The notes under the pieces were generated by a model. The model was not told the origin of the DNA. It ran no database searches and was given only the letters and a program-made list of their open reading frames with translations. From a virus, in IMG/VR virus record IMGVR_UViG_3300020021_000019, positions 1 through 54,081 of that record: a stretch of 54,081 bases of DNA. The stretch is one strand, 5' to 3'. Each line of letters begins with the position of its first letter. The first letter of the stretch is position 1. The translations under genes and the position numbers were made by a program. Below are positions 3,002 to 33,818 of this stretch, piece after piece.

Positions 3002-3303
3002 GGCAGCACCGTGATGGCGTAGGCCTTGCCTTTATCCCGACGAATCCAGCCCCGGCGCTCCAGCGCGGTCAGATGCTCGTGGACTGAGGCCAACGACTTG
3101 AAGCCCAGGGCGCGGGCCATCGCCTCGAACGACGGTGCGCTGCCCGTTGCCGTAATGCGGTCCGCGACGAACGCCAAGACCCGCCGCTGCTTCGCCGTCA
3201 GCGGGTGCTTCCGCTCACCCCGGAGCGCCGCCAGTTCATCCCGGAGCGTGGCGTTCTCGGCCTGGAGCGAGCGCACCTGCTCTTCGAGGCCCGTAGCGGT
3301 CAT
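2998..3303 (-). CDS. LexA-type winged-helix DNA-binding protein without peptidase domain
   Basis: A 101-residue protein. Residues 1-35 form a predicted coiled coil (EEQVRSLQAENATLRDELAAL), probably for dimerisation. Residues 38-98 match the LexA N-terminal winged helix: LTAKQRRVLAFVADRI, then PSFEAMARALGFKS, SVHEHLTALERRGWIRR. The C-terminal S24 self-cleavage domain of LexA is absent. The start at 3303 is preferred to an upstream GTG because GGTGG lies just before it and its ATG overlaps the stop of the 39-aa gene. It probably binds operators stably, independent of RecA-driven cleavage. Targets are unknown. Confidence 0.75.
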   Translation of the reverse strand: MTATGLEEQVRSLQAENATLRDELAALRGERKHPLTAKQRRVLAFVADRITATGSAPSFEAMARALGFKSLASVHEHLTALERRGWIRRDKGKAYAITVLP

Positions 3304-3419
3304 GACTTCCACCGGATCGGATAGACCCGCCGCCGGGTCCAGTACCAGCGCGCGGCGGCGAGGGTGCCGATCGTCCAGATCATGCCGCTGATGGCGAGAC
3401 GGGTGGCTGGGTCGGTCAT
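3300..3419 (-). CDS. 39-aa single-pass membrane peptide
   Basis: A short ORF held in place at both ends by ATGA overlaps: its ATG overlaps the stop of the DUF3820 gene and its TGA overlaps the ATG of the LexA-like gene. The product has one hydrophobic stretch (LAISGMIWTIGTLAAARW) followed by a very basic tail (RRRVYPIRWKS), consistent with a small inner-membrane peptide with a cytoplasmic C-terminus. Function unknown. Confidence 0.6.
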   Translation of the reverse strand: MTDPATRLAISGMIWTIGTLAAARWYWTRRRVYPIRWKS

Positions 3420-3826
3420 GTCATCACCGTCTTGAGCACCGGGAACTCATGGCCTTCGACCACCACCAGGATTAGGCCCTGGTACTTGATCCGTTCACCG
3501 TCTTTCTCGCCCTTTTCCCGGGCCTCCAGCACCATCCGCATAAGCCAGGAGTAGAGGCCTTCGCCGCGTGCACCGGTCCGGCGCCAGAGCGGCAGAGCAC
3601 GCAGGCTCGCATTGTCGATCGCGTGGCCGGTGAGCTCTACCGCGGGCATTGTGTCGCCCCGGCGCTCGAACTCCGCCTTGGCGAGCAGGCGCCACCGTTC
3701 GGGCAGTCCGACATTGTTGGCCATCCACCGGACATAGGAGACCGGGACCCGGGTGAGCAGCTCGCCTGAGTGCTTTCCGAAGTCCATGGTGACACCGTGG
3801 GTGCTCAGCGGGTCAGCGGTGTTCAC
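3416..3826 (-). CDS. DUF3820-like protein
   Basis: A 136-residue protein. MDFGKHSGELLTRVPVSYV (from residue 14) followed by RWMANN matches the FGKxxG...P.sYl.W core of DUF3820 domains, which also appear at the C-terminus of some exonucleases and helicases. The GTG at 3826 overlaps the preceding stop (GTGA); an internal ATG at 3787 begins the conserved part and is an alternative start. It could be an accessory nucleic-acid-binding protein. The family function is not established. Confidence 0.6.
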   Translation of the reverse strand: MNTADPLSTHGVTMDFGKHSGELLTRVPVSYVRWMANNVGLPERWRLLAKAEFERRGDTMPAVELTGHAIDNASLRALPLWRRTGARGEGLYSWLMRMVLEAREKGEKDGERIKYQGLILVVVEGHEFPVLKTVMT

Positions 3827-31260: not shown

Positions 31261-32322
31261 TTACAGGGTGAAGGTCGGCGCCGAGTAGCTGGCGTTATTG
31301 AACTGGAGGACGCCACCGTTGAGGCGGTTCCAGACCCCGATGCCGAACATGTGCTCGTAGTATTCGGCGCGGAGCGGGAAGGACTCAATAGTGGCCTCGA
31401 GGTGCAGGCCAGCGCTGTCCGGATCGGTCCGCATGACCAGCGGCTTCCGGGGATCCGCGGTGTCGGTGACGAAGGCGTAGTTCGCGATCGCCCACGGCTT
31501 GGTCCAGACTTCCGCCTGGCCGAAGATGCCGATCGCGCGGTTGTCCATCCGGGCCGGGTTGGCCCGTTCCTGATTCGGCTGGTTGGCGTTGGCGTTCAGT
31601 GAGAACCGGGGGTCGATGTAGGCCGAGAAGCCGGTCAGCGCCGCCACGGCGGCGGCATCGGCCACGTTGATGAACACCTTGACGGCCCCACCGAACCCGT
31701 GCTCCACGACATCGTTGATCGAGGCTTGGAGCACGGCCGCGGTCAGTGTGGCATTGGCGTCGTAATGGGTGTGCGACGTGCCGTCGTAGGCCTCGCCGTT
31801 CGGCCCGTCCTGGATGTTGGACGAGTCGGCGTTGATGAAGGCCTTCACCGCCAGACTGGCCTTGTCGACGTTGAGGTCGACGAAGGTGTAGTTGGTGGGG
31901 GTGTAGATGGCCTTCTGCAGCTGATACCGGATCCGGCGCAGGTCGGCCTTCTGCTGCGCCTGCTGGGCGATGGCGTAATCCGCCGGGGTCGCCTTCTTCT
32001 CGAACTGCTTGGTGAAGCCCACGGCGAAGTGGAACTTCTGCAGCGGGAACCCGATCAGGACGCCAGGGGCATCCTTCTGGGTCGGCGCCCGGGAGAACTC
32101 ATCCACTTCCTGCGAGTCGCCGCCGATCGAGCTGCCGGAGATCCGCTGCCGGTCCTGACTGACCGCGCACAGGTCCGTCAGCATCTGCTGGACCATGGCG
32201 TTGTAGTTGGCATTGTCCGCCGCGAGAACTTCCTCGATCGTGGACAGGCCGAACTTGACCGCCGACTGGAAATTGACGGCGAGCAGGGAACTGATGTCGA
32301 GAGTGCCGGTCTTCTGTGCCAT
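31261..32322 (-). CDS. Major capsid protein
   Basis: 353 residues. Order (scaffold, decoration, this gene, connector), size and a smooth alpha/beta composition identify the HK97-fold major capsid protein. Features include an extended N-arm (residues 1-60) and an E-loop-like region (65-130, with VGFTKQFEKKATPADYAIA). Downstream, YIDPRFSLNANANQPNQ and VWTKPWAIANYAFV resemble capsid A-domain strands of this family. Confidence 0.8.
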   Translation of the reverse strand: MAQKTGTLDISSLLAVNFQSAVKFGLSTIEEVLAADNANYNAMVQQMLTDLCAVSQDRQRISGSSIGGDSQEVDEFSRAPTQKDAPGVLIGFPLQKFHFAVGFTKQFEKKATPADYAIAQQAQQKADLRRIRYQLQKAIYTPTNYTFVDLNVDKASLAVKAFINADSSNIQDGPNGEAYDGTSHTHYDANATLTAAVLQASINDVVEHGFGGAVKVFINVADAAAVAALTGFSAYIDPRFSLNANANQPNQERANPARMDNRAIGIFGQAEVWTKPWAIANYAFVTDTADPRKPLVMRTDPDSAGLHLEATIESFPLRAEYYEHMFGIGVWNRLNGGVLQFNNASYSAPTFTL

Positions 32323-32349: not shown

Positions 32350-32754
32350 TTAGGCCGCGTTGAGGATGACGCGGATGTCGGTCGCGCTGAGGGCACGCGC
32401 GATGGCGACGAGGCCGCCGGTGGTGGCCGCGGTATCCAGGCGGCCTGCGGTCGCGGCCACGAAGTAGCTGGCCCCGATGGTCAGGCCGGACCCGTACCGG
32501 AACCGGGCGCCGATGCCGAACAGCGTGACCGGTTCGCCGATCGCGCAGGCCCGGGCGGTGAATCCGTCGAACTTGGCGGCTTCATTGGCCGCGGTGCCGT
32601 TCGACATGTAGACCTTGCCGTCCGCGGCCTTGATGTAGCAGGCCGCGCCGACGTCCAGGGCTTCGCCGGCGTACAGATTGCCGGTGATCGAGGGCGCGAA
32701 CATGCCCTGCGAGGCGTCCATGCTGCACTGAGCAACCCGAGTGACGAGTGCCAT
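32350..32754 (-). CDS. Capsid decoration (cement) protein
   Basis: 134 residues, all-beta, Gly/Ala-rich: ALDVGAACYIKAADGKVY, GEPVTLFGIGARFRYG, LVAIARALSATDIRVIL. This is the pattern of DUF2190-like capsid decoration proteins, which precede the major capsid gene. Start ATG 32754 has AGAGGATGG upstream. The gene directly follows the structured non-coding region and terminator. Confidence 0.75.
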   Translation of the reverse strand: MALVTRVAQCSMDASQGMFAPSITGNLYAGEALDVGAACYIKAADGKVYMSNGTAANEAAKFDGFTARACAIGEPVTLFGIGARFRYGSGLTIGASYFVAATAGRLDTAATTGGLVAIARALSATDIRVILNAA

Positions 32755-32787
32755 GGCGATCCATCCTCTTGTGAGTGATCCAACTGC

Positions 32788-32850
32788 AAAAAGCCGGGGC
32801 ACGGCCTCAGGGTCCCGTATGCGGGACCATCTGAAAGGCCACACCCCGGC
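32788..32850 (-). terminator. Long intrinsic terminator-like hairpin before the decoration gene
   Basis: Read on the minus strand, GCCGGGG pairs with CCCCGGC, then GGCC with GGCC, TCAG with CTGA, and GGTCCCG with CGGGACC around a CATA loop. That is 22 base pairs with small internal loops, followed at once by five T. It lies 34 bp before the decoration start, inside a transcription unit, so it should attenuate or be read through under control. It could also be an RNA-processing or stability element. Confidence 0.7.
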
Positions 32851-32867
32851 ATCGCGCCAAAGCCGAT

Positions 32868-32991
32868 CACCGATGGGCATCGCGCCGATCGGGTCGTTGT
32901 GTCTATGTCTGCGGAGCCTCGCGCTCCGCCATTCGGTTGCCAGGCCTCGCGCCTGGCGCTGCTATCAGATCAGCCCATCGCGGGCTGGATC
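32868..32991 (-). ncRNA. Array of four hairpins with a conserved GCGA(T/G) loop
   Basis: Non-coding gap between scaffold stop and terminator. In minus-strand order: stem CAGCCC/GGGCTG (32971-32987), stem GCCAGGC/GCCTGGC (32939-32957), stem GCGGAGC/GCTCCGC (32911-32929), and stem CCGAT-GGC/GCC-ATCGG with one mismatch (32870-32892). Stems differ in sequence yet each closes a 5-nt loop GCGAT or GCGAG, containing a GNRA-type GCGA. A fifth 3-bp version (32848-32858) overlaps the terminator base. Conserved loops with covarying stems argue for an RNA function, perhaps antitermination or protein binding. Confidence 0.65.
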
Positions 32992-32997
32992 ATCCGT

Positions 32998-33675
32998 TTA
33001 CAAGGCGCCGGCGATATCAGCGTTCCGGCGCGCCATCACGGCGCTGTTCGTAGCCGGTGCTTCTTCGGCGTCACCGTCCGACCCGCCGGCACCACTGCCG
33101 CCAGCGCCTGACCCTTTGTAGAAGAAGGGGCATTCCTTCTTGTACGTGATCTTGAGGAAGTCCTCGACCGTCTCAGCGGTCACCTTTCCCGCGGCATCAC
33201 GAACCAGAAACCCCTTCTTGTCCTCGGTCCGGTCGATTCGACCATTCGGGCCGGGCGCCAGATCCTTCATCGCCTTGTCAATCCGGTCGATCATGACCCC
33301 GAAATTCAGGGCCAGGTACCGGACATGGTCGACCAGTGTGACCTTCAGATTCTCGGCCTTCAGCTGCTCGTTCTCATCGAGAATCGGCTTCCGAGCCAGC
33401 GCTTCGGCGTCCCTGATCTCCTGCAGTTGCTGATCGGTGACTCCGTTTTCCTTGGCCTTCTTGGTCAGCTTCAGCGCGGCGAGGTCTTCCTCGGCCTTCT
33501 TCGCCCGCTTGTCGGCTTCCTTCCGGTCGTCGCGCTCTTTCTGGAGCGTGGCCTCGAGCTTGGAGACATCCGGCACCTCGGTGGCCTTCGGGTGCCATTT
33601 GCCGTCCCGTTCCTCGTAGATCGCCTTGAAGGCCTCGGGAACGTCTTCTTCTTTGTCAAAGACCGGCAGCGCCAA
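32998..33675 (-). CDS. Capsid scaffold protein
   Basis: 225 residues from TTG 33675, which follows GCGAGG by 5 bp. The N-terminus (LALPVFDKEEDVPEAF, KAIYEERDGKWHPK) is the usual scaffold-protein opening. A long coiled coil (residues 40-110, ERDDRKEADKRAKKAEEDL) and a flexible Gly/Ser-rich C-terminus (GSGAGGSGAGGSDGDAEEA) follow. It lies just upstream of decoration and capsid genes. A longer GTG start at 33765 is rejected because the extension covers a structured leader after a promoter. Confidence 0.8.
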   Translation of the reverse strand: MALPVFDKEEDVPEAFKAIYEERDGKWHPKATEVPDVSKLEATLQKERDDRKEADKRAKKAEEDLAALKLTKKAKENGVTDQQLQEIRDAEALARKPILDENEQLKAENLKVTLVDHVRYLALNFGVMIDRIDKAMKDLAPGPNGRIDRTEDKKGFLVRDAAGKVTAETVEDFLKITYKKECPFFYKGSGAGGSGAGGSDGDAEEAPATNSAVMARRNADIAGAL

Positions 33676-33723
33676 GCGAACCTCGCATCGAGGGATGGTG
33701 AGCGACACCCCGGAAACGACAAA

Positions 33724-33756
33724 CGCTCGGCCTCCGGGTTTCCCCAGATCCGAGCG
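33724..33756 (-). promoter_or_regulatory. Leader hairpin with GAAA tetraloop before the scaffold gene
   Basis: In the 5' leader downstream of the candidate promoter, CGCTCGG pairs with CCGAGCG, and inside it CTGGG pairs with CCCGG around a GAAA loop. The position between promoter and scaffold start suggests mRNA stabilisation or translational control of the capsid operon. Confidence 0.5.
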
Positions 33757-33789
33757 CCGGACCACATCAAGATTGTCCTGCGATGAACG

Positions 33790-33818
33790 ATTCTAGGCAA
33801 TCATGCGCGAATCGTCAA
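33790..33818 (-). promoter_or_regulatory. Sigma70-type promoter for scaffold and capsid genes
   Basis: Minus-strand TTGACG (33813-33818), exactly 17 bp, then TAGAAT (33790-33795). These match 5/6 and 4/6 of the consensus, the best promoter seen in the window. The -35 overlaps the 3' end of the minor head gene. Transcription would start near 33783, giving a leader of about 110 nt, and would raise capsid expression above that of the upstream packaging genes. Confidence 0.75.

Follow-up and report, generated by a model that had tools for sequence, protein, structure and literature searches.

Hairpins with a common GNGAN pentaloop and varying stems in the capsid-gene leaders of many unrelated phages: a predicted regulatory RNA

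Hairpins that carry a GNGAN pentaloop on differing stems are widespread in the leaders of scaffold and capsid genes across many unrelated phages with hosts in several phyla, and five of them form an array ahead of the capsid genes in the window, by which we mean the whole 54,081-nt stretch of viral DNA that was analyzed. We give roughly an even chance to the reading that this array regulates in cis, as RNA, from a capsid-gene leader; the hairpins would be binding sites, and binding to the last of them would prevent formation of a terminator.

The array occupies a 243-nt noncoding stretch on the minus strand (positions 32755 to 32997), which separates the scaffold gene from the structural genes that follow. 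Its loops read, in order, GCGAT, GCGAG, GCGAG, GCGAT and GCGAT, and the stems differ. Hairpin 1 (h1; 32971 to 32987, minus strand, as are all features of the array) is CAGCCC.GCGAT.GGGCTG with 6 bp; h2 (32939 to 32957), GCCAGGC.GCGAG.GCCTGGC, and h3 (32911 to 32929), GCGGAGC.GCGAG.GCTCCGC, have 7 bp each. The spacer GACATAGACACAACG (32895 to 32909) separates h3 from h4 (32870 to 32892), CCGATCGGC.GCGAT.GCCCATCGG, whose stem has 3 plus 5 bp around one C-C mismatch. The core of h5 (32843 to 32863) is GGC.GCGAT.GCC, and its stem reaches up to 8 bp when G-U pairs are used. These loops are pentaloops that begin with GCGA, which is GNRA-type by sequence. Within the window, GCGAN pentaloop hairpins with a perfect Watson-Crick stem of at least 5 bp occur in the array only, and the region from 32755 to 32997 folds with a z score of -5.8 relative to dinucleotide shuffles.

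The initial annotation of this DNA had described hairpins with fixed GCGAT or GCGAG loops and differing stems ahead of the capsid genes, and we confirm this description, with the coordinates above on the minus strand. It had also placed a fifth copy next to a 22-bp terminator-like hairpin followed by five T. Both the hairpin and the T tract (TTTTT at 32792 to 32788) were borne out, but the stem (32793 to 32850, minus strand) comprises 25 pairs with two internal irregularities, and the fifth copy goes beyond abutting it, as its 3' arm (32850 to 32843) is the first part of the 5' arm of the terminator. Thus, h5 and the terminator are mutually exclusive by base pairing. The terminator-like stem alone (32850 to 32793) has a folding energy of -44 kcal/mol; it was missed in a simple terminator scan, whose loop limit of 3 to 8 nt and continuous-stem rule were unsuited to it.

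On the minus strand, the array is flanked by the scaffold gene (32998 to 33765; phrog_206, E = 5.6e-12) and, directly downstream, by a small gene (32350 to 32754) in the position of a decoration protein, which is preceded by an SD-like AGAGGA and weakly matches phrog_4368, a family of unknown function (E = 4e-5). The major capsid protein gene follows (31261 to 32322, minus strand; phrog_3990, E = 7.8e-27). The N terminus of the scaffold open reading frame (ORF) as annotated (33675 to 33765) is probably leader, since the homologues begin at the residue encoded by a TTG at 33675; this TTG, inside ORF 33765-32998, is likely the true start judging by alignment A2 and L214. A promoter-like TTGACG-17-TAGAAT (33790 to 33818, minus strand) lies ahead of the scaffold gene and is a possible start of the capsid transcript. 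A scan for promoter-like sites found 2 of them for 1.3 expected, which is weak, and by eye TTGACA-like sites precede the scaffold gene in relatives as well.

Neither blastn with the whole region nor a search with the window's capsid protein found close relatives in 50,697 phage records or the viral contigs, the best matches being weak (E of 0.03 and worse). A sister array was present in L187 (IMGVR_UViG_3300027819_000040), among the matches listed by a loop-only pattern scan, which were mostly chance matches in coding DNA. The order of its loops is that of the window (GCGAT, GCGAG, GCGAG, spacer, GCGAT, GCGAT), and its spacer, GACATAGACAGAACG, is nearly the same, the common form being GACATAGACA(C/G)AACG. 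When the window spacer was used as an anchor, it was accompanied by an array in L187 only among the viral contigs searched. Four of six pairs are compensated on both sides in the counterpart of h1, GCCGGACGC.GCGAT.GTGTCTGGC, and three of six in that of h3, GTGTGGC.GCGAG.GCCACAC. At the h5 position stands CAGC.GCGAT.GCCGGGGGG, and this last copy likewise runs into the 5' arm of a long stem. Over the 30 aligned pairs of the two arrays, 11 have changed on both sides yet remain paired, 2 have changed on one side, 14 are unchanged and 3 are broken. The capsid protein of L187 appears, by eye, unlike that of the window, so that the RNA array seems to be older than an exchange of the capsid gene and to have outlived it, or the reverse. 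In L187, a tmRNA gene (3120 to 3439, minus strand; RF00023, 81.9 bits; no ARAGORN call) separates the scaffold gene from the hairpins.

Terminase relatives led to L011, in which the gap between scaffold and capsid genes contains three differently stemmed hairpins, all with a G-TGA-C loop. A search of 2.2 Mb of phage DNA for at least three same-loop, different-stem hairpins within 250 nt gave only the window, L011 and L100, and the hit in L100, which is GC rich, was taken as chance. A scaffold profile search then gave gaps with GGGAT, GTGAT, GCGAT and similar loops, suggesting the general loop GNGAN. For an independent set, new scaffold-capsid gaps were picked by capsid-protein similarity alone. 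The 13 nonredundant gaps thus obtained contained 20 GNGAN pentaloop hairpins with a stem of at least 5 bp, compared with 0.33 in 300 dinucleotide shuffles (maximum 3). All 46 nonredundant gaps together, a set that takes in the loci that suggested the motif and that are left out of the 13, held 47 such hairpins compared with 0.79 in shuffles, or half of all pentaloops in the gaps. The rate of GNGAN hairpins was 5.8 per kb in the gaps and 0.12 per kb per strand over 3.9 Mb, and in the larger fetched contigs and the window, clusters of at least two were found at the capsid region only. The intergenic region of the array has a GC content of 65%, and short stems are common in such DNA; nevertheless, counts this far beyond shuffles and background, together with the gaps selected by capsid protein, refute the idea of chance hairpins, to which we assign a negligible probability.

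The stems themselves are not conserved (36 distinct 5-mers among the 47 hairpins), but they pair. Irrespective of pairing, G[CGT]GAT sites were flanked by a stem of at least 5 bp in 54% of cases in the gaps compared with 1.5% in other parts of such genomes, and control loops (CNGAT, ANGAT, GNCAT and others) had such a stem in 0 to 6% of cases. At 70 sites defined by the loop only, the flanks were paired in 78.8% of cells compared with 43.8% after shuffling. The covariation score of these sites was 0.809 compared with 0.226 for shuffles (0 of 500) and at most 0.228 for slid registers; many of the 70 are copies within one phage or from related phages, and the shuffle count is no formal probability. 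The counts in the independent gaps and the covariation support the earlier proposal of selection on an RNA structure with a fixed loop. The same annotation had anticipated related arrays in sister phages, which L187 and the gaps of other phages provide, and covariation, which appears both in the 70 sites (0.81 versus 0.23) and in the compensated stems of L187.

Depending on the phage, the element precedes the scaffold gene, the capsid gene or both, in one to five copies. The array lies before the scaffold gene in L231, L288, L349 and L214, the scaffold of which is 46% identical to that of the window. The capsid proteins of element-bearing phages differ (phrog_212, 283, 267, 247 and 3990). Prophage-like contigs of Betaproteobacteria and cyanobacteria carry the element too, in L393 and L399 with stems that are short by eye. 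Before the scaffold gene of L331 (1562 to 1640), a 16-bp hairpin with the loop GTGAG stands beside CGGGGC.GTGAG.GCCCCG, an array of the GNGAN family. Among cultured phages, the element was found in YuA, LKO4, Ab18, Bordetella phage MW2, Rhodobacter phage RcRudolph, cyanophage PSS2 and Xanthomonas phage DoCa5. Pseudomonas phage YuA has TGGCGG.GTGAT.CCGCCG and GTGC.GTGAG.GCAC before the scaffold gene and CCGG.GTGAT.CCGG before the capsid gene. The scaffold-leader hairpins of YuA and MW2 differ by a compensatory change (GGCGG/CCGCC versus GGTGG/CCACC), and the LKO4 record has a bare 'stem_loop' annotation at the hairpin spot.

The capsid leaders of cultured phages gave 13 hits with a stem of at least 4 bp for 1.4 expected, compared with 2 on the reverse strand. 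This strand bias bears on the possibility that the hairpins act as DNA, in a cruciform or as replication or packaging hairpins, given the symmetry of perfect inverted repeats at the DNA level. We consider this very improbable, as GNGAN occurs on the strand that encodes the gene downstream, with 20 there, and is absent from the commonest reverse-strand loops, and as G-U pairs are used. N4-type promoter hairpins, REP elements and CsrA sites were also considered and dropped, on the grounds of different loops, strand bias, G-U pairs and the absence of CsrA.

We looked for structures that would compete with the hairpins. The 5' arm and loop of a GNGAN hairpin were complementary to downstream sequence in 11 of 27 family leaders (p of at most 2%, from duplex energies relative to shuffled downstream sequence). 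The competing helix was not significant in the other 16; the window counts among these because the overlap there involves the 3' rather than the 5' arm of h5. When contiguous helices were required instead, values were weakly above shuffles, because G-U pairs and high GC give chance helices. A clear U tract of 5 to 7 U follows the competing stem in L303, L305, L307 and L225, as in intrinsic terminators. U tracts are poor in other leaders, and many of these (L187, L217, L219, L261 and L315) have none after the long stem, making termination there doubtful. The ribosome-binding site lies within the competing stem in L038 and L243. In YuA and MW2, no alternative terminator that overlaps the hairpins was seen by eye; in YuA, a terminator-like hairpin and a -10-like TATACT come first, followed by the array before the capsid gene.

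To judge from these predicted pairings, a link of the array to termination is plausible. The initial annotation had proposed control of read-through from the scaffold to the capsid genes, and the mutually exclusive pairing of h5 and the terminator, together with the 11 leaders, speaks for the termination part. Its scope was too narrow, however, as hairpins also, or exclusively, precede the scaffold gene in YuA, MW2, L214, L231, L288 and L349, and stems cover ribosome-binding sites in two leaders. The latter stems would suit hairpins that serve as operators for a protein repressing or activating the loading of ribosomes onto scaffold and capsid mRNAs, the terminator being no switch, and so would the hairpins directly upstream of the scaffold or capsid Shine-Dalgarno sequence in YuA, MW2, L214, L288 and L349. 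Such translation control is a serious contender but rather unlikely; in the window, a 25-bp terminator with its five T stands between the array and the next start codon and is overlapped exactly by h5. As the partner stem differs by phage (a terminator, a ribosome-binding site or neither), the common feature is therefore a predicted binding site in capsid-gene leaders, with an output device that varies among phages. Such variation is what one would expect of leaders that respond to a protein.

Loop composition points to recognition. In the 47 hairpins, position 2 is G in 19, T in 16, C in 12 and never A, and position 5 is T in 34, C in 8, G in 4 and A in 1. Among 24 phages with at least two copies, position 2 was alike in 0.72 of within-phage comparisons compared with 0.32 when loops were dealt at random (0 of 2000), and position 5 was not clearly uniform. 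Several exceptions at position 2 are GGGAT copies that overlap a terminator-like stem, with whose CCC they have to pair. The occurrence of the same loops on unrelated stems within a phage argues for one trans-acting factor reading every copy, and recent duplication is less likely because the stems differ. We also considered that hairpins capped by GNRA-like loops might protect the abundant capsid mRNA or mark it for a nuclease. High-copy structural mRNAs often need stability, and the hairpins combine strong stems with loops that may be stable, but stabilization alone would take UNCG or any GNRA loop, whereas these loops keep G at position 3 and A at position 4, and their second base is constant inside a phage yet differs between phages. 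The fixed and phage-specific positions thus suggest recognition rather than plain stability, and we regard stabilization or processing as unlikely.

In the regulatory reading that we prefer, each hairpin would represent one copy of a binding site made of a 4- to 9-bp stem of free sequence and a GNGAN (mostly GNGAT) pentaloop, and the reader, most likely a protein, would be a factor that binds RNA sequence-specifically. The factor bound to h5 would block the overlapping 25-bp terminator, letting scaffold transcripts extend into the downstream structural and capsid genes; on array RNA without the factor, the terminator would form and transcription would end. The upstream copies h1 to h4 may allow cooperative binding or increase occupancy locally. 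In other phages, the GNGAN site would be wired to other terminators or to stems hiding the ribosome-binding site, or be placed directly before scaffold and capsid start codons. The hairpins, their fixed loop and covariation, their place and strand, and the incompatibility of h5 with the terminator by base pairing are observed; protein binding, antitermination over repression, and the setting of scaffold and capsid amounts as the purpose are what we infer. A phage-encoded binder is favored, given that the element stays with the capsid module in different hosts and with several capsid families. As a speculation, the scaffolding protein would be the simplest candidate: a phrog_206-type scaffold was found in 7 of 9 element-bearing records tested, and also in phiCbK, which is without GNGAN. 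Homologues of CsrA and NusG were absent from 13 element-bearing records, in a search whose controls worked, and the ANTAR profile PF03861 matched 0 of 16 records, with control genomes likewise unmatched.

GG[T/G] triloop hairpins with varying stems were observed in the scaffold and capsid leaders of L294-L301, L433, L434, L443 and L444 (29 compared with 0.56 in shuffles; 29 of 37 triloops). Their carriers are mostly alphaproteobacterial phages, namely, phiCbK, CcrSC, CcrColossus, DSS3P8, RcXuper, Lacusarx, XM05, RXM, Bajun and Bambus, and Microcystis phage Mwe-JY26 has them too. The replacement of GNGAN by GG[T/G] triloops in the same leaders hints at a loop code that depends on lineage. L002 (7470 to 7640) and L224 (4780 to 4940) have two TGG-triloop hairpins, along with a stem, some 10 bp long, in which the capsid start codon is hidden. 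By eye, the gap before the capsid gene holds another conserved leader in L015, L065, L078, L081 and L089, with a TTGCxx-17-TATACT-like promoter and then a GAGC-TTCCGGTGG-GCTC hairpin.

We tentatively propose an unnamed, widespread phage RNA class, in which capsid genes of tailed phages from several host phyla would be controlled by leader hairpins with a lineage-specific loop code (GNGAN with a phage-specific second base, or GG[T/G] triloops in alphaproteobacterial phages). The hairpins would co-evolve with a reader, which may be the scaffolding protein or the capsid protein, so that capsid assembly and the expression of capsid genes would be linked by feedback. This broad proposal is possible, though we would not yet count on it; if the binder were indeed a capsid or scaffold protein, double-stranded DNA phages would have a feedback that couples gene expression to assembly. 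How the scaffold-to-capsid ratio is set in tailed phages is largely unexplained outside a few models, and a covariation-supported RNA sits exactly there. The presence of the element in the laboratory phages YuA and LKO4 opens it to ordinary reporter and binding assays, and the within-phage uniformity of loop position 2 offers a direct handle for a binder search.

No family of Rfam 15 matched any array or leader examined at the gathering score, the sole match being the tmRNA of L187, and we found no description of such an element in the literature, searched largely without subscription journals. The loops (GCGAT and GCGAG in the window, GTGAT and GTGAC in YuA and L011) lack the GGA of CsrA/RsmA sites. 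HK022 put RNA acts without a protein, in early operons, and we know of no GNGAN shared by its loops. The array resembles it as phage hairpins near a terminator, and its several structured hairpins, transcribed before a terminator, could in principle bind RNA polymerase and confer terminator resistance without a protein factor, as in HK022. We hold this to be quite improbable, as one or two hairpins suffice in many relatives (L219, L216, L327 and YuA), phages with hosts in different phyla carry the element, and its position before start codons in YuA needs no antitermination. The parallel with put drawn in the initial annotation is weaker than those with ANTAR or RAT antiterminators. In RNA-phage coat-protein operators and P22 scaffolding autoregulation, a protein regulates structural genes via the mRNA of those genes. 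The likeness lies in the structural genes; a capsid or scaffold protein would be a putative binder here, and we know of no fixed-loop array in those systems.

RAT sites are single larger hairpins with conserved internal loops, unlike the several simple stems with one conserved apical loop of the array. The protein-stabilized RAT hairpin of BglG/SacY systems overlaps the 5' arm of a terminator (PMC3369931), as h5 does. ANTAR-target RNAs (EutV, NasR and AmiR) have hexanucleotide loops with A1 and G4 (PMC3369931). They share with the array the tandem small hairpins in leaders, the variable stems with conserved loop residues, and one hairpin that is mutually exclusive with an intrinsic terminator, here h5. 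They differ in that our loops are GNGAN pentaloops, which the A1/G4 hexaloop definition leaves outside, occur in one to five copies at phage capsid genes and also stand before start codons without a terminator. In logic, ANTAR-target RNAs would be the nearest analogue, of which the array is no member. Lambdoid boxB hairpins have pentaloops with a looped-out base (PMC12550061). They are small hairpins that bind a phage peptide, and their pentaloop is GNRA-like, a form that GNGAN would fit by sequence; however, there is one per nut site, together with boxA, in early operons and with loops such as GACAA, whereas the present element has several copies, late capsid genes and a G at loop position 3, and reading the 243-nt region by eye revealed no boxA CTCTT core. 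By these analogies, the place in capsid-gene leaders, the loop and the array form would be new, and protein-read leader hairpins would be the known kind to which the element belongs.
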